From: Marine Group III euryarchaeote CG-Bathy1
GTDB taxonomy: Archaea; Thermoplasmatota; Poseidoniia; MGIII; CG-Epi1
NCBI GenBank assembly: GCA_001875425.1
Contig: MIYU01000019.1
Span: 1-64,000, forward strand
DNA: 64,000 nucleotides
Reading direction: 5' to 3'
A model generated the notes under the pieces. It was given only the letters and a program-made list of their open reading frames with translations. It was not told the origin of the DNA and did not search any database. Shown piece by piece: positions 36,562 to 62,003 of the stretch; the first letter of the stretch is position 1; every line of letters starts with the position of its first letter. The translations under genes were made by a program, and so were the position numbers.

Positions 36562-36632
36562 ATATTAAAATCCTCAATTGTGGTGGTTTTTGGGGGGTGG
36601 TTGGTGAGTAACTACATACGGCGATTGGGCGG

Positions 36633-36709
36633 TGGCGGGCCTGCAGGGATTCGAACCCTGGGCCGTCCGGTTAAAAGCCGGACGCTCTACCTAGCTGAGC
36701 TACAGGCCC
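36633..36709 (-). tRNA. tRNA-Lys (TTT anticodon)
   Basis: On the minus strand the acceptor GGGCCTG pairs with CAGGCCC. The anticodon stem TCCGG/CCGGA holds loop CTTTTAA with anticodon TTT. The T arm CAGGG/CCCTG encloses TTCGAAT. The discriminator is G, and CCA is encoded at 36633-36635. The tRNA lies upstream of rpoH on the same strand. Confidence 0.95.
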
Positions 36710-49859: not shown

Positions 49860-50099
49860 TTACACTCCAAATAAATCTCTTAGAAATGGCGGTACATTTT
49901 GCCAAAAGTAGTATATGCCAAAACCAATACCACCAGTAATAGCTATACCGATAGCAACCGTCCACGACGTTCTAGTAAACTCATCATAACTAGGTTTCTT
50001 AGCCAATCTCATAACTCTGCCAAGCTGACCTCTAGAAATTTTTCTAGCGCGCTCTTCTAGAGCATCTTGCTTTTTCCAAACCCAATCGACAAAGCTCAT
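49860..50099 (-). CDS. secE: Preprotein translocase subunit SecE/Sec61-gamma
   Basis: The 79-residue translocon subunit has an amphipathic N-terminal half with WKKQDALEERARK, the conserved KKPSYDEF before the membrane helix, then a single hydrophobic helix with TVAIGIAITGGIGFGIYYF. It overlaps ftsZ by 4 nt and precedes spt5, as in many archaea. Confidence 0.92.
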   Translation of the reverse strand: MSFVDWVWKKQDALEERARKISRGQLGRVMRLAKKPSYDEFTRTSWTVAIGIAITGGIGFGIYYFWQNVPPFLRDLFGV

Positions 50100-51190
50100 T
50101 GTACAAAGTCTATTCCATACCTCGTTTCTAAATCCTCTTCTATGCTACTAGGTGGTCCCAAGATTTGTTCCGACTTAACCCCCGTTACAACCAACATAAC
50201 TCTGATAGAATTATCCAATTCTGGATCCACCGAAGCTCCCCAAATGATTCTAGCCTCTTTATTAATCTTACTATAAATTTCTTCTAGAACTGTTTCTGCT
50301 TCTTTCAATGACATATCACTCCCGCCTGTAACGTTCACTAATGCACCACTGGCGCCTTCAATGTCCACTTCAATAAGAGGGGATGAAAGCGCAGCTTTGA
50401 CAGCTTCCGAAGCCCTATCTGCACCACTACCTTCTCCTGTTCCAATCATTGCAACACCCGATTCTGTAGTCATAATTGATCTTAAATCTGCAAAATCAAT
50501 GTTAACTAAACCAGTCGCAGTAGTTATTTCAGACATACATTTTATTGCACCAGCTAAAATATCATCAGCCTCTCTAAACGCTTGATTTAATGGTAATTGA
50601 GAGATATCATCATTTAACAATCTATCGTTAGGAATAACAATTACAGTATCAACAACTTTTCGTAATCTTTCTAATCCCTGCCTAGCATTTTCCATTCTTT
50701 TAGCGCCTTCATTTGTAAAAGGCATTGTAACAACTGCAATAGTCAATGCTTTTTGTTGCTTAGCCAACTTTGCAAATACAGGCAAAGAACCAGTCCCAGT
50801 ACCTCCTCCTAGTCCTGCAGTCAAGAAAACAATATCAGCATCTGTACACGCTTCTAGTATTTCACTCCTACTTTCGTCTGCAGCCGCTTGTCCTATTACT
50901 GGGTCGGAACCGGCACCCATTCCTCTGGCGCACTCTCTACCAATCAACATCTTATTTTCTGCAATCGTACTTAACAAATGTTGCGCATCAGTATTAGCAG
51001 CTAACATTTCAACACCTTCAACACCTTCTTCAGATAATCTAGTTAGGGTATTATTTCCACCCCCACCACATCCAACAATCAGGATATTAGTTTTCAAATC
51101 GGATATGAGCTCTTGCAGAATCTCCTCTTCGCTTTTCTCTTCTTGCGATTCGGTCGTTGGTTCTGAAGATTCCTCATTCAAATCTGTCAT
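50096..51190 (-). CDS. ftsZ: Cell-division GTPase FtsZ
   Basis: The 364-residue tubulin-fold GTPase forms the division ring. The nucleotide-binding loop GCGGGGNN is at 40-47 and the tubulin signature GLGGGTGTGS at 126-135, followed by the T7 region with NIDFADL near 225. The acidic N-terminal tail of about 30 residues is longer than in many bacteria. The ATG at 51190 is 26 nt from a TATA-like TTTTAAATAC, so the transcript is nearly leaderless. It heads the operon ftsZ-secE-spt5-rpl11-arcC. Confidence 0.96.
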   Translation of the reverse strand: MTDLNEESSEPTTESQEEKSEEEILQELISDLKTNILIVGCGGGGNNTLTRLSEEGVEGVEMLAANTDAQHLLSTIAENKMLIGRECARGMGAGSDPVIGQAAADESRSEILEACTDADIVFLTAGLGGGTGTGSLPVFAKLAKQQKALTIAVVTMPFTNEGAKRMENARQGLERLRKVVDTVIVIPNDRLLNDDISQLPLNQAFREADDILAGAIKCMSEITTATGLVNIDFADLRSIMTTESGVAMIGTGEGSGADRASEAVKAALSSPLIEVDIEGASGALVNVTGGSDMSLKEAETVLEEIYSKINKEARIIWGASVDPELDNSIRVMLVVTGVKSEQILGPPSSIEEDLETRYGIDFVQ

Positions 51191-51313: not shown

Positions 51314-54300
51314 ATGAATATTCACATCTCACCCCCAAAATATTTCCGCCAATTATTGGTTTTCTTAACAGTTTTACTTTTACTATCTCAAACAAATTTC
51401 GTCGCTATTACTTCCTCCACAACACAAAAGGCCGACAGTCAAGGATATGGCATTACAGAAGTACTCGATTTAAATTTTAAAGAAATAAACGAGAAGGATA
51501 ATCTGGATGATATCGTAGACCCTCTTTTGGATATAGCTAGGGATTCGTACAAGCAATCCACTCTAAATATAACAGAACTTGATGAAAATCACGACAGAGT
51601 CTCCTCATTAAATGCAAGTGAAGATATAGATGCCTCATTCGAGGAAAACATAATTGAAACCAATATCGATTTATCTACAAGAGGGTTCTCTCCAACTGTA
51701 GTCAACGACCCAGAACCGGTCAGAGCCGGTATAATGGATTATATTTTAGGAAATCCCGATTTGTGGCCAGGTGATTTACTAGAGTTAGATACAATTTTCG
51801 ATTTTTTCACTGATACTTATCTAATATATTATGAATATGATTATAATCAGAATGGAATTATTTGGAATCATTGTAGTGACGGTACGGAACCAACAACTCC
51901 TTGGAATGCTACTACCGGTCCTTGCAATGGTAATTGGATTTCAGAAACCCAACTAATCAGGGCCGATTTACTTCAATTTTTAGCTGGAGCCTCTATTCAA
52001 ATTATTACAGACGCAATCATAGATACAATTGGTGAAGGACTCATTGCCGATCTTCTAATAGGTTTCTTGGATGGTCTTGATCAATCTGATTTGGCTTGGG
52101 AAACAATAGACATAGATGGGGATGGTGTGAATGACATGAAAGCACGCATGGTCCCTATTCTGTCTAATATAGATTTTGGAGCTTCATTAAATTTCTCTTT
52201 TCCGCCAGTCGATGACATCTCATTTGGAACTTCTGCCGGTTTAAGATTCGATTTAGAACCATTAGATGGAACTGAAATTGAACATCCAATTGAAGTTTCT
52301 GTTATTAGAGGATTGACCTATACTACAACAGAGGACGACACCGTAACATACGTCTGGACAGTCAATTCTAGATTATCACATATGCCAGAAGAATATCATT
52401 GGGAGGCCTTGATTGAGAATTTTGGAGTAATTTGGGATCTTACTGGTGGCGGCATCAATCCTGGCGATGATCTCTCTGCACTTTCTCCACCATATATCAT
52501 CAGTTACGGCCTTACTGGTGGTCCAGCCTTACCACAAAATAATGGTCTCGATCCTGAATTAATTTTAACTCCAGGATATGTTAGATATGATTGGAATTCT
52601 GTTGGAGATGGGGCTCCTGCAGAAGATGCGATGGAAGATATGACTTTCTTAGAGATAGGTATCAACAATCGAGGAGAACCAGTTCCTGCAGATTTCAGTT
52701 TGAAAATCTATGATCAAGGCAACGAAGCCGAAGAGGGAGATGAAATAGACGGTATCGAAGTATTCGCTTCCAACAATGCCGCGAACGGCATTTTCGATTT
52801 CGATTTCACTTATTTCGAACACAACCGTGATCCAGAAGAAATTCACCCATTCTTTAATCATATCACAGCAAGAATGGAAGGCGTACCGACTGGCGATATT
52901 CCAGAGGACGGCAGGCTGGCTTCTGTATGGTTAGAAGCAAGAAATGAAACAGGTTCTAAAGGATCTAACTGGACTGCAGTAGAGCTCTATTCAAATGGCG
53001 TCATTGAATCTTTCACTTATGGTGATTATGAATACATGTCTGAAACAGATGAAGAAGCAACTTGGGATAATCATGATTATCGTCTATTCACAGGAATTGT
53101 TTTGAAAGATATACCGCAGTATCTCTTTCTAGAAGGGTCATTTCTAATCTTTTCAGATTCCGATCCAGTAACTCCTGATGTAGATTTTGGAGGAGTAACC
53201 GAAGTTGCAAATTTCCTTAATTATGCAATGGTCACTATAGCGGCTAAACTATACAGCATAGGATTGGTTCTGAGAGCTATTCCTGGGGCTGCATTAGGTA
53301 TAAGTCTCGGAGGTGAAGGAGAGGATGGTGCAGTAGACCTCTATATGAGAACGGAGAGGGATTTAGACCCTCAGAAGAAAGCATACATTGGTGAATTTTC
53401 CGTATACTTAACAAGTCACGCTTATTTGGATTTGAATGACAATAGTGAAGATAATTATTTAACAATATATAATCAAACAGCCTTTCTTGAACAGAATTCT
53501 CCAAATCCAGATAGGGCTGCCTTATCTCAATTAAATCAAAATTTCACATTCAGTGGCCGATTACGAGGTATCGGTGATATCCATTACGCTTCTCAAAATC
53601 AAACACGCACGGTCACAATTGATACAGATCCAATATCCGATTTACCTTTCCGAGTTTATTTTGAAAGTGCTGATGAAAATTTAACCGCAGATACTTGGGC
53701 CAATATTTCATTAAGTGATATTCCAAACAGACTAGAATTTGCATTCGATTCTGAAGCGTTTAGTTATAGTGGTGGTGAAGTGGTAGATGGTATAATTCTA
53801 TCCAGCTTCGCGGACGGAACATATTCTAAATTCACTTTGGAACATATACCAGAAAACATTAACGTTGGAACGGGCGATGGCGATTTCTTTTTGAATACTG
53901 ATAGTTGGTTCAATTTCTCTTTTATAATAACAAATATAACTGATAACAATTCTGCCACCGCTACTATTTGGGATGATTCTCTTTATGATGATAGTTACGT
54001 TCTTCTAACACAAAACAACGTTGAAGAAGTGGATTGGTCTGCAAGCCTTAGCGGTCGTTTGAATTGGCTAGATGCATTAGAATTAGATAATTTAGGCAAC
54101 GAATCTGAATTTAGATTATTCTTCCATCAACCCGCCGTTTTCAAAGTTGGCATTTTAGACAATACAGATTATGGCGAAAATAGTGCTAAAGGTGTTAACG
54201 GTTATCTTTCCGTAGAGCCGTTACCAACTGAATTAGTTTTCACCATCTCTTCTAACGACGAAGCGGAAGGTCCAGGAGGAGAGCTAGGTAATATCACAGG

Positions 54301-56839
54301 GCTATCTGACATATCTAGAATACTTTCAGAATTGGCGAATTTAGGACGCTCTCTTGCAGACATCATTTCTGAGGTTTCTATCAATCTCGTTTCAGATGTC
54401 GATTCTGTAGAGTCGAGTCTCAAATTCGATTATAGTATAGAAGAAGAGGTCAACATTGTTGCTTGGTTGAATAAAGGAGACATCACTCTTTTGGAAGAAG
54501 AAGAAAGATGGGTGCAAGGTGTTTGGTCATCACAAATTGAAACGGACGATGGAATCATTCTTGCTGCTAGACTATATCTTGTGGGACTTCCTAGGGTACT
54601 TGGTTTAGATTATGTTTCAAATAGAGATGATATAGATGTAAATTTGACGGTAGAAGGCTACAATAAAGAAGGTATTGCAGAATATCTTCTATTCGATACA
54701 AATGGACTACTCGGTCCAAATTTAACAGCATATATTGGCCCATCAATATCCGATGAAGATCGCGGCGTTCCACAATCTTTAGATTTAAGCATTATAGGGG
54801 ATTTAGTTGTAAATTCTAGCGCTGACAATTTCACAATAGATGGTTATCTAAACATTTCACATTCAAGTGTAAATAACGACCCCTTGGGCCCTATTTATTT
54901 GGAAGTCAATGAAGGTGGAACAAGACCTTATTCTATTCGTGTTTTAATTCCAGAAATTCCAAATACCATTTCGATTCATCTAATGGTTTCAGAGGATAAT
55001 GTGGGTATTTCTTATAACGCAAGCGACGTACTAGGGACTTTCATTGTAGAAGTCGAAATAGGTAATACGGATGATTTGAACACAGATTGGTACAATGGAG
55101 TATCTTTCGATATTTCTGAAGATAATGACGTATCACTCAAAGCATTCCTTGTAGGCCTTCCTTCTGATTTATTGTTGAATTTCTACGACCCTTCAGAAGG
55201 TGGTGCTTGGCTAGATTTGAATATGCAAAATTTCAATGCTGCGCCAGCAGGTTATATGAATGATTTAACATTAGATCTAAAAAATCTAAGCGACATGGAT
55301 ATCTTAGTTCACATAGGCGACTTACCTAGGAATTTTGATTTAACAGGAGATTTATTCGTCAGTTCAGGAGGTCCGAGTGCTACCAGCTCTCTAGGAATAA
55401 GTAGCATAGATTTAGATTTAGGTCTCAATTCAAGTGCACAATTAAATGAAATTTTTGTAAGTATCCAAGACGTCGATACAGATTTACTTCTTGAATTATA
55501 CACCCCCACACTCCCTCAAGTCCTAACTTTAAACGCCTCCATAACTGGCGACGTTGCTTTTGATTTATCGCTCTCTTCACCTATACAAGAGGTAATTCTT
55601 TTCGTAGATTTAGGTGATACTACTTTACTAAATCCTTATTGGACACACGGCGTAGTTTTCCTTCAAAATAACGATTCAACAGCCTTTAGATTATATGAAA
55701 AAGGAGAGATTACTGCAGCTCATCTTAATTTCTTAAACGACGAACCAAAAGACATATACATCATGTTAGAAAATTGGAGCCCAGATTTACTCTCTGGAGA
55801 TGCTCCCGAATGGGCAATAGTAGATGTCGATACGGGTGTAGACGGCAGCTCAACATTCTTGTATATTGACGATATTCAGGAAAATAACATTATAGAAGGA
55901 CATTTCATTATCGCCACAGATGAGGAAAAAGGAATCGATACAGACGCTTCCTTTGATGTTACCACTAGTTCAGGTATAGGCTCAGCTTACATTCAGGCAA
56001 TAAATCGTACTCGGCCAACCAATACCGAACTATATCTCGATGATTTACCAGATGATTTATCCGCAACAGTACTTTCAGGCAGGTCAATAGAGATTAACTA
56101 TACGGCTAGCGATCCGACAGATTATGTTTGGGTTTACTCTTCTAAGAAAGTATTGGATAATTGGGTAAGTGCATATGCACTCGTTCATGACGTTTCTACG
56201 TATATGAATTTAGCAGTTCTTCCATATTATGGCTATGATATGGATCGGCCATTTATTTTACAAGGTCTTCCAACAGTAACAGTTGGCACTTCTAACAATT
56301 CTCTAGATGTTATCTTGATAGTAGATCCAGGTTATTCTGGCGGGTTTACAGGCACAGCACTCGATGCAGAGAACGTAGGGGATGGCACCTTCATCGGGCT
56401 GAACGAGCTAGGAAATTATGTCATAAGTGCACCAAACGGCGTCGACAAAGCATACTATCGTCTTTCGAATGCACCAACAACTCCTCAATTCTCTCTTAAT
56501 AAATTCGAAATTTACGCTGATAATATCTCTTATGTAGAACTTACGACAACCCAACTCTTTGGAGTTTATCCAATTTTTGCATTACACAAAGCAAACGGAG
56601 GAAATCTAACCTTCATTATAGGCGCAAGTATTCGACCCGTCGAAGGTATGGAATTCAAAGCCAATTCTGTCATGCTAGATTTAAGAACTAAAGAATTTGG
56701 CGGTCTACCTATTTTACCGACGTGGTTAGGAATCTCAAATAATGGAATAAACGGTGAATTCGGCAAAGACGAAAGTCACTATATCATGCCGGAGCCCGTT
56801 CTAAGTTTAGTTTATACTGTATTAGGAGAAATATTATGA
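51314..56839 (+). CDS. Giant secreted acidic repeat protein (1,841 residues)
   Basis: I do not recognise this protein. An N-terminal hydrophobic segment (about 13-35) acts as signal peptide. The rest is acidic, with many Asp, Glu, Asn and Ser, few cysteines, and many N-x-S/T glycosylation sites. A short pattern of the form h-x-x-h-P-x-x-h-x-h recurs near residues 600, 802, 843, 968, 1089, 1211, 1280, 1335, 1398, 1576 and 1649 (for example DIPNRLEF, GLPSDLLLNF, DLPDDLSA). This suggests tandem beta-type domains of variable size. There is no C-terminal anchor, but the next gene, overlapped by 4 nt, encodes a membrane-anchored partner. The likely place is the cell surface. The frame is open to a GTG at 51293. 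Confidence 0.7.
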   Translation: MNIHISPPKYFRQLLVFLTVLLLLSQTNFVAITSSTTQKADSQGYGITEVLDLNFKEINEKDNLDDIVDPLLDIARDSYKQSTLNITELDENHDRVSSLNASEDIDASFEENIIETNIDLSTRGFSPTVVNDPEPVRAGIMDYILGNPDLWPGDLLELDTIFDFFTDTYLIYYEYDYNQNGIIWNHCSDGTEPTTPWNATTGPCNGNWISETQLIRADLLQFLAGASIQIITDAIIDTIGEGLIADLLIGFLDGLDQSDLAWETIDIDGDGVNDMKARMVPILSNIDFGASLNFSFPPVDDISFGTSAGLRFDLEPLDGTEIEHPIEVSVIRGLTYTTTEDDTVTYVWTVNSRLSHMPEEYHWEALIENFGVIWDLTGGGINPGDDLSALSPPYIISYGLTGGPALPQNNGLDPELILTPGYVRYDWNSVGDGAPAEDAMEDMTFLEIGINNRGEPVPADFSLKIYDQGNEAEEGDEIDGIEVFASNNAANGIFDFDFTYFEHNRDPEEIHPFFNHITARMEGVPTGDIPEDGRLASVWLEARNETGSKGSNWTAVELYSNGVIESFTYGDYEYMSETDEEATWDNHDYRLFTGIVLKDIPQYLFLEGSFLIFSDSDPVTPDVDFGGVTEVANFLNYAMVTIAAKLYSIGLVLRAIPGAALGISLGGEGEDGAVDLYMRTERDLDPQKKAYIGEFSVYLTSHAYLDLNDNSEDNYLTIYNQTAFLEQNSPNPDRAALSQLNQNFTFSGRLRGIGDIHYASQNQTRTVTIDTDPISDLPFRVYFESADENLTADTWANISLSDIPNRLEFAFDSEAFSYSGGEVVDGIILSSFADGTYSKFTLEHIPENINVGTGDGDFFLNTDSWFNFSFIITNITDNNSATATIWDDSLYDDSYVLLTQNNVEEVDWSASLSGRLNWLDALELDNLGNESEFRLFFHQPAVFKVGILDNTDYGENSAKGVNGYLSVEPLPTELVFTISSNDEAEGPGGELGNITGLSDISRILSELANLGRSLADIISEVSINLVSDVDSVESSLKFDYSIEEEVNIVAWLNKGDITLLEEEERWVQGVWSSQIETDDGIILAARLYLVGLPRVLGLDYVSNRDDIDVNLTVEGYNKEGIAEYLLFDTNGLLGPNLTAYIGPSISDEDRGVPQSLDLSIIGDLVVNSSADNFTIDGYLNISHSSVNNDPLGPIYLEVNEGGTRPYSIRVLIPEIPNTISIHLMVSEDNVGISYNASDVLGTFIVEVEIGNTDDLNTDWYNGVSFDISEDNDVSLKAFLVGLPSDLLLNFYDPSEGGAWLDLNMQNFNAAPAGYMNDLTLDLKNLSDMDILVHIGDLPRNFDLTGDLFVSSGGPSATSSLGISSIDLDLGLNSSAQLNEIFVSIQDVDTDLLLELYTPTLPQVLTLNASITGDVAFDLSLSSPIQEVILFVDLGDTTLLNPYWTHGVVFLQNNDSTAFRLYEKGEITAAHLNFLNDEPKDIYIMLENWSPDLLSGDAPEWAIVDVDTGVDGSSTFLYIDDIQENNIIEGHFIIATDEEKGIDTDASFDVTTSSGIGSAYIQAINRTRPTNTELYLDDLPDDLSATVLSGRSIEINYTASDPTDYVWVYSSKKVLDNWVSAYALVHDVSTYMNLAVLPYYGYDMDRPFILQGLPTVTVGTSNNSLDVILIVDPGYSGGFTGTALDAENVGDGTFIGLNELGNYVISAPNGVDKAYYRLSNAPTTPQFSLNKFEIYADNISYVELTTTQLFGVYPIFALHKANGGNLTFIIGASIRPVEGMEFKANSVMLDLRTKEFGGLPILPTWLGISNNGINGEFGKDESHYIMPEPVLSLVYTVLGEIL

Positions 56840-57288
56840 ATCTAAATCAAAGAAACAAACAACTCACAACAATACTGTTGTACGGTTTTCTAATATTTAT
56901 TCTATTGAGCACTTCGTATCTCTATATTTTTCCCAGAACTGAAGTAGAAGTAAAAACAGCATATCACCATTCCTTTTCAGGCGCCTTTTTACAAGTACGA
57001 ATAACTAATGCAGGTACACATGATGTCACCGATGTCTCATTAGAAATAACAGTATGGAAAGATGAAGATCTTATTAATTCCACAATACATGAAATGGATA
57101 TATTGGCAAATAGAGAATCGATAAAACTCCCTGAACTTATGTTTTATTCTGAAGCTCAACTTACACACACTGCAGTGATCACTCTCACATTCACTGAAGG
57201 CGATACAGTTCAACGATCCGTCTGGTCTTACGAAATCAAAGATTATGCCAATTTATTTTGGGAGGACCAGTACTTAAAATGGGGTTAG
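56836..57288 (+). CDS. Hypothetical membrane-anchored protein with an outside beta domain
   Basis: The 150-residue protein starts with a basic segment, then one membrane helix at about 13-31, then a domain of about 110 residues with alternating beta strands (VEVKTAYHHSFSGAFLQVRITNAGTHDV type) that resembles immunoglobulin-like CARDB domains. The ATG overlaps the stop of the giant protein by 4 nt (ATGA). The last 10 nt overlap the start of the Cas4-like gene in another frame. It could anchor or chaperone the giant protein on the cell surface. This is inferred from order and topology. Confidence 0.6.
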   Translation: MNLNQRNKQLTTILLYGFLIFILLSTSYLYIFPRTEVEVKTAYHHSFSGAFLQVRITNAGTHDVTDVSLEITVWKDEDLINSTIHEMDILANRESIKLPELMFYSEAQLTHTAVITLTFTEGDTVQRSVWSYEIKDYANLFWEDQYLKWG

Positions 57289-58103
57289 AAGGACATCCAA
57301 TTTCAGCTTCAGATTTAGAGAGATATGGTTATTGCCCACTCTCTTGGAAACTTCATAAAGATGGAGTTGACGCAGAGGGAAAAGAAATTATAGCTGGAAC
57401 TAAAAAAAAACGCGAAGTCCGCAACATTCTTCAAAATCTATTCAATCAAGAACACTACAGCGATTCCTCTTACCAAAATTTTAATTCTGTTATAAAAGTA
57501 GCAATATTCACCAACCTCATAGGTATTCTTTTTCTCTTATTTGTTAATTCATTAGTAGGCTATTTTCTAATATCTTTAAGCTTTATTTGGCTCATAATCG
57601 CTTCTCTTTATCTTTATTTCTTTCTTTATTCTCATGAAACTGCTGATGAAATAAAGGCCAAATTAGACGTCGAAGATAAGAAATCGAATAATAGCGAACA
57701 CAGAATTAACACTCCAAAATTATTCTCCAACAGCATCGGTCTATGCGGTAAACCTACTTATGTTTTGGAAAACAATGATGAAATAATACCAGTAGACGTT
57801 AAGTCAGGCAGAAAACCGGAAAAACCATTTTTCAACCACGTTCTTCAAAATGCAGCATATTGTTTCTTAGTAGAAGAACAATTAGAAACCAAAGTACCAC
57901 ATGGAATCATTAGATATGGCATGAAAGAAAAATCACATACTGTAACATGGGATGAAGATCTTAAAAATCTTCTAATAGAAAAAGTATCTGAAATGGAAAA
58001 AATCTTGAATGGAGATTCTGAAGCACACCGAAATCATAATCGGCCAGGAAAATGTAAAAATTGCTCCAGAAAGGAAGCATGTCCCGAAAGATTAGACAAT
58101 TAA
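57279..58103 (+). CDS. Membrane-embedded Cas4-like (RecB-family) protein
   Basis: The 274-residue protein has the Cas4 frame of an N-terminal cysteine (C19 in GYCPLSW) and a C-terminal cluster C259-x2-C262-x5-C268 that would hold an iron-sulfur cluster. The nuclease core is GLCGKPTYVLENND..PVDVKSG, giving the D-x-K pair D173/K175 (the E-x-K position). The GxxD aspartate of Cas4-type nucleases appears as T160, so cleavage may be lost. Two membrane helices at about 73-90 and 93-117 are inserted between the first cysteine and the nuclease core, which is unusual. The ATG at 57279 is used, with GGAGG 15 nt upstream. A TTG at 57258 is less likely. Confidence 0.65.
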   Translation: MGLEGHPISASDLERYGYCPLSWKLHKDGVDAEGKEIIAGTKKKREVRNILQNLFNQEHYSDSSYQNFNSVIKVAIFTNLIGILFLLFVNSLVGYFLISLSFIWLIIASLYLYFFLYSHETADEIKAKLDVEDKKSNNSEHRINTPKLFSNSIGLCGKPTYVLENNDEIIPVDVKSGRKPEKPFFNHVLQNAAYCFLVEEQLETKVPHGIIRYGMKEKSHTVTWDEDLKNLLIEKVSEMEKILNGDSEAHRNHNRPGKCKNCSRKEACPERLDN

Positions 58104-59884: not shown

Positions 59885-60151
59885 ATGGAAGTTTCACTGT
59901 TAAAAAATACGAAAACAGAATTGGAAATTGAAATTCGAGGCGCTAGCGAAACGCTTCTAATTCCACTATTAAACAAAACACTTGCCGATTCAAAAGTGGA
60001 TTATGCTTCATATTATACGGGACACATAATTTTAGATGATCCTCGTTTTTATTTGAGAACTAAAAAGAGCTCTCCACACAAAGTACTTCTGTCTGCTACA
60101 GATTCCGTACTCAAAGATATTGCTACGGTTCAAAAGACAATATCTAAGTAA
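59885..60151 (+). CDS. rpo11: RNA polymerase subunit L (Rpo11)
   Basis: The 88-residue subunit pairs with subunit D to form the alpha-like assembly platform. It has the N-terminal ELEIEIRGASETLLIPLLN, the DYASYYTGHIILDDPRFYLRTK segment typical of RpoL, and the C-terminal helix. The length is normal. The last base of the stop overlaps the ATG of truD (TAATG). Confidence 0.9.
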   Translation: MEVSLLKNTKTELEIEIRGASETLLIPLLNKTLADSKVDYASYYTGHIILDDPRFYLRTKKSSPHKVLLSATDSVLKDIATVQKTISK

Positions 60152-61416
60152 TGCCAAATTCCTATCTTTCCGAGGTAGGTAATGAAAAATATTCTACAGA
60201 ATTATCTGGTATTGGTGGAAAACTCCGCGACACTCCTGATGACTTCGAAGTTCGAGAAATCAGCATAATCCCTTCTCTATCTCTTACTGGTAAACATACT
60301 GTAGCAAAAGTAACATCAAGAAATTGGGAAACTAATACATTACTTAGAATTCTAGCTAAATATTTAGGAATCTATTCCGAAAGAATAGGGTTTGCTGGAA
60401 CTAAGGACAAAAGAGCAGTAACTACACAATTACTTTCATTTCCTGTAGGTGAAAACCAAGTATCTAACTTAGATATCAAAGATGTAACAATCGATATTTT
60501 AGGCAAAACTAACAGAAAAATAAAGCTAGGTGAATTGGTAGGAAATGATTTCACAATTAAAATAACAAATACTAAAAATGCAAAAGAGCACCTCCCTCCT
60601 TTAATTTCAATATTGAAAAAAGGATTTCCAAACTATTTTGGCGTTCAGCGCTTCGGTTCTATTAGGCCTATAACTCATTTAGTCGGAAGAGAAATCGTTA
60701 ACAATAATTTTGAAGAAGCTGTTAAAATATATCTATATGCTGAATCTAATGTAAAAGAGGAAGATAGAAGTTTCTTACGTAGTTTAGATAGTTGGGAAAG
60801 TACTTTAGAAAACTTACCAGGACGTTGGCTTTATGAGCGAGATTTAGTAAAGCATTTAATTTCTAAAGATGGAGATTTTAAAGGAGCTATACGTAAATTA
60901 CCTCTAAATCTCTCCAGATTATTCGTTCATGCTTATCAAGGGGCGATTTTCAATAAAATAATAGAATCCAGATTAGATTCAGGAATTCCACTTAACGCCC
61001 CCCAAATAGGTGATTTAATTTTACCAGAAGATAGTAATGGTTGCCCCAATTCAAACAGAGCAATCGAAGTTACATCCTTTAATTTAGAAAAAATAGAGAA
61101 AAGATGTCTAGAGGGTAGGGCCTGGGTTTCTGGTTTAATTCCCGGCGTCGATTGTAGCACTGCAGGAGGAATACAAGGAGAAATAGAAAACAAAACTCTC
61201 TCTCTTTTTGACGTAGATAAAGAAAACTTTACAATACCACATTTACCCGTACTATCATCCTTCGGAAAAAGACGAGCTTTACATGAAATCCCAAAAAACC
61301 TGTCAACTGAAATAACAGATGATGCCGTCACAGTAAATTTTGCCTTAAACAAAGGAAGCTACGCAACTTCTTTTTTACGTGAAATAATAAAATCTAAGAA
61401 TCTTTCGGACTATTGA
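60151..61416 (+). CDS. truD: tRNA pseudouridine(13) synthase TruD
   Basis: The 421-residue enzyme isomerises U13 of tRNAs. Family elements are the N-terminal GKLRDTPDDFEVREI, GFAGTKDKRAVTTQLLS with the catalytic aspartate near 83-99, NYFGVQRFGSIRPITHLVGR near 155 and LSRLFVHAYQGAIFNKI near 255. The insertion domain follows, then GKRRAL and SYATSFLREI at the end. The length is normal for archaeal TruD. It overlaps rpoL by 1 nt. Confidence 0.95.
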   Translation: MPNSYLSEVGNEKYSTELSGIGGKLRDTPDDFEVREISIIPSLSLTGKHTVAKVTSRNWETNTLLRILAKYLGIYSERIGFAGTKDKRAVTTQLLSFPVGENQVSNLDIKDVTIDILGKTNRKIKLGELVGNDFTIKITNTKNAKEHLPPLISILKKGFPNYFGVQRFGSIRPITHLVGREIVNNNFEEAVKIYLYAESNVKEEDRSFLRSLDSWESTLENLPGRWLYERDLVKHLISKDGDFKGAIRKLPLNLSRLFVHAYQGAIFNKIIESRLDSGIPLNAPQIGDLILPEDSNGCPNSNRAIEVTSFNLEKIEKRCLEGRAWVSGLIPGVDCSTAGGIQGEIENKTLSLFDVDKENFTIPHLPVLSSFGKRRALHEIPKNLSTEITDDAVTVNFALNKGSYATSFLREIIKSKNLSDY

Positions 61417-61445
61417 TTATATTAAACACCATTAAATGGAAGTAC

Positions 61446-62003
61446 ATGACTTCTTCAAGCACAGAAGAAATAAAAAATCAAGATACTTATTTGATACAAG
61501 TATCTGGTATCATCTATGGTCCAATTAGTGCTGACAGAGTAGTGGCTGATTTTTTGGAAGGAAAACTCTCTTCTTCTTGTTTCATATCTCCATATACATC
61601 GGAAGAACAGAAAGATTCTTGGTCACCTCTAGAAGAATCCATTCTAATTAAAAACATAATAAAAGAACGAAAACATCCTAAATTTAACAATAGATGGAGA
61701 TCTCTTAATAATCCAAACCAACACCTCTTTATCTTTGGAGATTATTTAGTTTTAGAGAGTGAAGAGTTGTCATTTTGGGATAATATCAAATCTTTTTTTA
61801 TGGAACCAAATACAGGAGCCATTCCATTTCCAGCAATCTTAAACATCAGTTTTTCAAATCAGAAAGAAGGAGTAGAAATAGAAGCGTGCACCTTCAAAGA
61901 AATATATGAAATACATTCATTAAAATGTACACTTTCAAATTCAGATGCAAGAGAGCTACGTAAAGAACTTCAAAAAGAACGTATACGTATTATTGATGCT
62001 TAG
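61446..62003 (+). CDS. GYF_2-like domain protein
   Basis: The protein of about 185 residues has an N-terminal GYF_2/DUF4339-like region (YLIQVSGIIYGPISADRVVADFLEGKL, then DSWSPLEESI) at about 15-65. A second half rich in aromatic and charged residues, of unknown fold, follows. GYF_2 domains bind ligands or peptides in bacterial proteins. A TTG at 61413 overlaps the truD stop (TTGA), but ATG 61446 gives a clean N-terminus. The function is unknown. Confidence 0.55.
   Translation: MTSSSTEEIKNQDTYLIQVSGIIYGPISADRVVADFLEGKLSSSCFISPYTSEEQKDSWSPLEESILIKNIIKERKHPKFNNRWRSLNNPNQHLFIFGDYLVLESEELSFWDNIKSFFMEPNTGAIPFPAILNISFSNQKEGVEIEACTFKEIYEIHSLKCTLSNSDARELRKELQKERIRIIDA

Follow-up and report, generated by a model that had tools for sequence, protein, structure and literature searches.

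Solo-Cas4 and the three-gene locus

Archaeal cas4 genes located outside CRISPR-cas loci have been described as solo-Cas4 (COG1468/PF01930/TIGR00372; Hudaiberdiev et al., 2017, PMC5704561). The Cas4-like protein analyzed here, Cas4-TM, belongs under solo-Cas4, and the fold, the Fe-S cysteines, the RecB-type motifs and the non-CRISPR location are common to both. Its distinguishing feature is a set of inserted membrane helices: after the first cysteine and ahead of the nuclease core, Cas4-TM carries one to four hairpins, counted by hydropathy, and such a membrane-inserted form is absent from the text of PMC5704561. The copy studied here differs further in that the Asp of motif II is absent. The best structure and sequence matches to the nuclease domain of Cas4-TM were the type I-C Cas4 8d3l and the Cas4-like chains 4ic1 and 4r5q, and none of them carries an inserted membrane hairpin. 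In addition, 8d3l comes from a complex of Cas4 with Cas1 and Cas2, whereas a Cas1 match was found in only one of 60 genomes of the class Poseidoniia. The nucleocapsid protein of TTV1, as cited in PMC5704561, was derived from an inactivated Cas4. Going by that description, it is a precedent for reuse of the Cas4 fold after loss of catalysis, but it differs from our protein in being a component of a viral nucleocapsid.

The window, that is, the whole stretch of 64,000 nucleotides analyzed, comes from a Marine Group III (MGIII; class Poseidoniia, phylum Thermoplasmatota) genome of 1.04 Mb. This genome is 79% complete with 5% contamination and was the sole genome of its genus in the comparison set. 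Following ftsZ, the three consecutive genes reported in a preliminary description of this DNA were present as neighbouring ORFs on the + strand, encoding a giant protein, a small protein that we call the anchor, and Cas4-TM:

50096..51190, - strand: FtsZ gene, divergent neighbour of the giant; part of a generally syntenic block and outside the system
51317..56839, + strand: giant, a predicted exported beta-rich repeat protein; ORF of 1840 aa, open from GTG 51293 (1848 aa)
56836..57288, + strand: anchor; ORF of 150 aa, predicted helix at residues 13-31
57279..58103, + strand: Cas4-TM, the Cas4-like protein; 274 aa from ATG 57279, 281 aa from TTG 57258

The stop of the giant and the start of the anchor share 4 bases (ATGA), and the same overlap (-4) was found in 11 of 15 loci of relatives. 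The anchor and Cas4-TM share 10 bases in the window if Cas4-TM starts at ATG 57279, which lies nearer to the conserved start than TTG 57258 does. In relatives, however, the anchor is mostly separated from Cas4-TM by a gap of about +62 to +70 bases, which makes the second overlap a peculiarity of the window. Of the earlier statement that every gene overlaps the next, only the giant/anchor part therefore holds beyond this genome.

The giant and anchor gene pair

The N-terminus of the giant bears a hydrophobic segment, and profile self-comparison revealed internal repeats (off-diagonal matches with a probability of 99% and E 1e-20), in agreement with its earlier reading as a secreted repeat protein. 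Sequence searches of Pfam, NCBIfam, PADLOC and PDB returned nothing useful for the giant. A compact giant homologue gave a model (pLDDT 81.5, pTM 0.71) in which a beta meander is combined with two long helices, and Foldseek comparison with the PDB and with viral models gave low-probability matches only and no confident known fold. The best match was ApoB100 (probability 0.25, TM 0.07). Because probabilities did not exceed 0.25 and TM values were about 0.1 or less, these matches were rejected as a fold assignment. At their C-termini the giants have a loosely conserved motif of the H-x-x-x-P-x-P type and, after it, a hydrophobic tail too short for a full membrane helix.

The anchor was predicted to have a single N-terminal membrane helix (residues 13-31) followed by a conserved beta domain on the outside with the motif PRTxxxVxTvYh...N.GT, which bears out its first description as a one-helix protein with an outside beta domain. 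The name reflects a role suggested by this one helix and by adjacency to the giant. A weak match to DUF2393 (PF09624), with E 1.7e-4, extended over the helix into the first part of the beta domain; its 22 bits fall below the curated gathering cut-off of 26 bits, so the anchor was left unassigned to DUF2393, and the databases searched gave no other useful match for it.

Profiles built from the MGIII giant and anchor were used to search for the pair in other lineages. The two genes were adjacent in 15/15 MGIII loci and, with order and strand kept, in all 16 MGII loci examined. In other Thermoplasmatota, covering seven families, they were adjacent, again with order and strand kept, in 15 of 17 loci; in the other two the anchor lay near a contig start or was unresolved at the ORF level. 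The anchor profile matched 98 of 293 genomes sampled from Thermoplasmatota.

A gene for a PKD-domain membrane protein lies upstream of the pair in MGII, with genes for a subtilase and then an Ig-like protein downstream. From this context of surface-protein genes, giant and anchor would form an envelope component. The whole MGII block (L154-L169) runs from L15e through PRC-barrel, metallo-beta-lactamase and a PKD membrane protein with a zinc ribbon to the giant, the anchor, a membrane subtilase, an Ig-like membrane protein and then respiratory complex genes. In several MGII genomes ftsZ is also near the giant cluster.

Giant and anchor make up what is apparently an undescribed, ancient and conserved surface gene pair. 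Many lineages of one archaeal phylum have this giant surface protein and the membrane partner dedicated to it, and the pair falls outside the known families of proteins. No description of the pair was found in the open-access literature, which is weak evidence of novelty.

Cas4-TM, a Cas4 with an inserted membrane hairpin

The Cas4/RecB-like identity first proposed for the third protein held in profile searches, in which Cas4-TM scored above the cut-offs of both TIGR00372 (78.4 bits, cut-off 65, E 5.7e-22) and PF01930 (43.1 bits, cut-off 22.7, E 6e-11). The AlphaFold model (mean pLDDT 91.8) had a PD-(D/E)XK / RecB nuclease fold, and Foldseek placed type I-C Cas4 8d3l first (E 7.1e-07), followed by Dna2, MGME1 and EXO5. 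A single-sequence search of the PDB with the window protein gave no match, and the family profile matched solved Cas4 structures. By profile and structure, the third protein is a true member of the Cas4 family. A single-sequence scan of the genome contigs for homologues likewise gave no match; the homologues were found by an alignment-based scan of these contigs.

The features of Cas4-TM referred to below are as follows:

57333-57335, + strand: C19, invariant in 48 sequences
57381..57665, + strand: predicted membrane hairpin, helices 35-88 and 92-129, from model secondary structure and hydropathy
57756..57758, + strand: motif II codon ACT, Thr160; metal-binding Asp in 47/47 aligned relatives
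57795..57803, + strand: motif III (D/E)xK, Asp173-Val-Lys175; in relatives 41 E and 6 D, K invariant
58053..58082, + strand: C259, C262 and C268, invariant in 48 sequences

The model supported the two membrane helices noted earlier, with a pLDDT of about 90-98, and showed them as an insertion that follows the first cysteine (C19) and precedes the nuclease core. Judged by hydropathy and by the K/R residues on either side in relatives, the hairpin probably has both ends in the cytosol. The helix count predicted from hydropathy is two to four for most relatives and eight for two proteins. These two (L126 and L132) are about 550 aa long, with the eight predicted helices arranged as four tandem hairpins in the nuclease. 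No description of Cas4-TM was found in the open-access literature, again weak evidence of novelty.

The active site was tallied in an alignment of the window protein with 47 relatives (48 sequences). In the relatives D, (D/E), K, Q and Y are conserved, with no variation at the Asp of motif II, the Lys of motif III, the Tyr or the four Cys, and the family looks catalytically competent. C19, C259, C262 and C268 correspond to the four Fe-S ligands expected of the Cas4 family. The window copy keeps D173, K175, Q190 and Y194 of the (D/E)xK and QxxxY motifs; the catalytic Asp of motif II is absent from this copy alone, which leaves its descent from the Cas4 family unaffected. Since this Asp is replaced by Thr160, the window protein is probably inactive as a nuclease. 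The codon ACT differs from GAT/GAC at at least 2 positions, and a single-base error is therefore unlikely. However, one genome of the genus was compared, and Thr160 may be an oddity of this MAG. A second Cas4-TM copy in another genome (L059, G037:C6:85858-86945) is broken by in-frame stops, and an intact copy lies on another contig of the same genome.

Cas4-TM is spread over many families of Thermoplasmatota, which is at most suggestive of mainly vertical inheritance, and it lies outside CRISPR-cas loci with housekeeping or surface genes as neighbours. Cas1 gave no match in the window genome, and given its absence from 59 of 60 class genomes a role of Cas4-TM in CRISPR adaptation was unsupported. 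The single Cas1 match among the 60 Poseidoniia genomes was at L153 (G008:C17:4258-4923), and it may be either a CRISPR locus or a contaminant.

At ten loci (L080, L082, L091, L101, L117, L122, L123, L127, L130 and L131), Cas4-TM directly follows, on the same strand, a gene for a secreted lamin-tail/phospholipase-D (PLD)/PKD protein; the spacing is within 25 bases or overlapping, and often a gap of 1-24 bases. These partners share 31-94% mutual identity and have two intact HxKxxxxD motifs, and the two genes possibly form an operon whose products act at the membrane. This PLD-fold neighbour is an independent hint that Cas4-TM may work on DNA at the membrane, but PLD-fold proteins act on lipids too. 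Directly upstream of Cas4-TM in L126 and L132, with the same strand and spacing, is a different lamin-tail protein. A large protein encoded upstream of Cas4-TM elsewhere (c10) was considered as a homologue of the giant, but the giant profile did not match it and its domains are those of a lamin-tail/PLD/PKD protein, so this homology was rejected.

Two gene units or one system

Wherever an MGIII locus is sequenced far enough, the trio has the same order. However, the flanking genes ftsZ, THEP1, trm1, rpoL and truD are as syntenic as the trio, and ftsZ adjoins the giant in 10/10 MGIII loci. As these housekeeping neighbours are equally fixed, the constant order of the trio in MGIII is not evidence of joint function. 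Conservation of the trio in related genomes thus holds for MGIII, but in MGII and in seven other families of Thermoplasmatota the pair stands without Cas4-TM beside it. Outside MGIII, none of 75 Cas4-TM loci (58 from named Thermoplasmatota and 17 from MGII, a broken eighteenth MGII copy being left out) had giant or anchor nearby, while the MGIII positive control was found. MGII Cas4-TM instead lies near the genes for ribosomal protein S2 and a dihydrouridine synthase. Among 17 pair-bearing genomes outside Poseidoniia, 16 have Cas4-TM, always on a different contig, and the seventeenth has none. A Cas4-like gene was missing from 23 of the 98 anchor-positive genomes (22 from MGII and one other), although single absences weigh little because most of the compared genomes are incomplete MAGs. 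The preliminary proposal that the three genes are one undescribed system did not survive this comparison, in which the pair is conserved without adjacent Cas4-TM.

Our preferred explanation, to which we assign a probability of roughly 0.6, is that there are two separate ancient units, a surface pair and a membrane-held Cas4-TM nuclease, which became neighbours in MGIII. The giant would be exported through its N-terminal signal segment, fold into a long beta meander and be kept at the outer membrane face, probably by the one-helix anchor with its outward beta domain, the two together making an envelope component. Cas4-TM would be a DNA nuclease of the Cas4 type that works independently of CRISPR and is held at the inner membrane face by helices inserted in its own fold; its most likely task would be to degrade or trim any DNA ends near the membrane. 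In the window organism this copy is probably no longer an active nuclease, its catalytic Asp having been lost. Both units, the giant+anchor pair and the CRISPR-independent membrane Cas4, are apparently undescribed and independent; the trio is a gene arrangement of MGIII, and any functional meaning of the coupling is putative.

Against the two-unit explanation, the fixed MGIII order would equally be expected if the three proteins cooperate in MGIII. A rival idea is that the MGIII trio is one system, with surface proteins that carry DNA or a virus to the membrane and a Cas4-like protein that processes this DNA on the inner side. The identical order in all sufficiently sequenced MGIII loci, the single strand and the short gaps are consistent with it, as are the other large exported proteins with which Cas4-TM is co-directional elsewhere (PLD/lamin-tail/PKD in ten loci, lamin-tail in two). 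We nevertheless consider it improbable, for the pair and Cas4-TM are apart in the other lineages examined, the surrounding housekeeping genes are equally syntenic, and the window Cas4-TM lacks the catalytic Asp although giant and anchor remain. Moreover, ComEC (PF03772) was found in none of the 60 class genomes and none of 11 others, with 10 of 14 controls positive, which makes DNA uptake of the ComEC type unlikely. The earlier suggestion that the nuclease processes DNA taken up lost ground on the same two counts, the usual channel not being found and the window copy being without its Asp. Slightly less improbable, but still unlikely, is a reading in which the Cas4-TM family, widespread in Thermoplasmatota, consists of CRISPR-independent nucleases that are held at the membrane by helices within the nuclease fold, act on DNA at the membrane in defence or scavenging and change their exported partners from lineage to lineage. 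The partner would be the secreted PLD-fold/lamin-tail protein in several lineages and giant+anchor in MGIII.

The remaining alternatives concern single proteins. The window Cas4-like protein could be without catalysis and have been repurposed at the membrane, where it would bind DNA or serve in a structure, a possibility to which we give slightly less than even odds; it covers the window copy alone and is compatible with the two-unit explanation for the family. Thr160 in place of an Asp found in every aligned relative, by a codon at least 2 positions from those of Asp, points in this direction, and conservation extends over the remaining sequence (about 42% identity; model pLDDT 91.8). On the other hand, the observation comes from one incomplete and slightly contaminated genome of one genus, and the retention of the remaining active-site residues and the four cysteines means that the loss may be recent or partial. 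The reuse of the fold raised in the preliminary description is thus possible for this copy but does not extend to the family, whose active site is intact in relatives. For the giant, we also considered lipid handling in a hydrophobic groove of beta strands, as opposed to a structural role in the envelope. Its homologue's strands alternate between hydrophobic and polar residues more than shuffled controls (2.61 vs 1.77 +/- 0.17), the model has two long helices, and LptD and vitellogenin join ApoB100 among the weak Foldseek matches. But these matches have the low scores given above, ordinary beta sandwiches likewise have amphipathic strands, and the MGII gene context is one of surface-type proteins; we regard lipid handling as unlikely.

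Separating the two units replaces one misleading story about three genes by two that can be tested, a surface pair and a membrane-inserted Cas4. The latter gives the question of CRISPR-free Cas4 function a definite location in the cell and, in some lineages, a possible operon partner.

Two minor observations were made elsewhere in the window. At 60151-62003, the HAD hydrolase and the thrombospondin-3/transglutaminase-like protein that relatives carry between truD and the next gene are missing, and the resulting adjacency is common to 0/11 relatives. At 36617-36709, ARAGORN called a tRNA-Arg (+) and a tRNA-Lys (-) on overlapping bases, one of which is presumably spurious.
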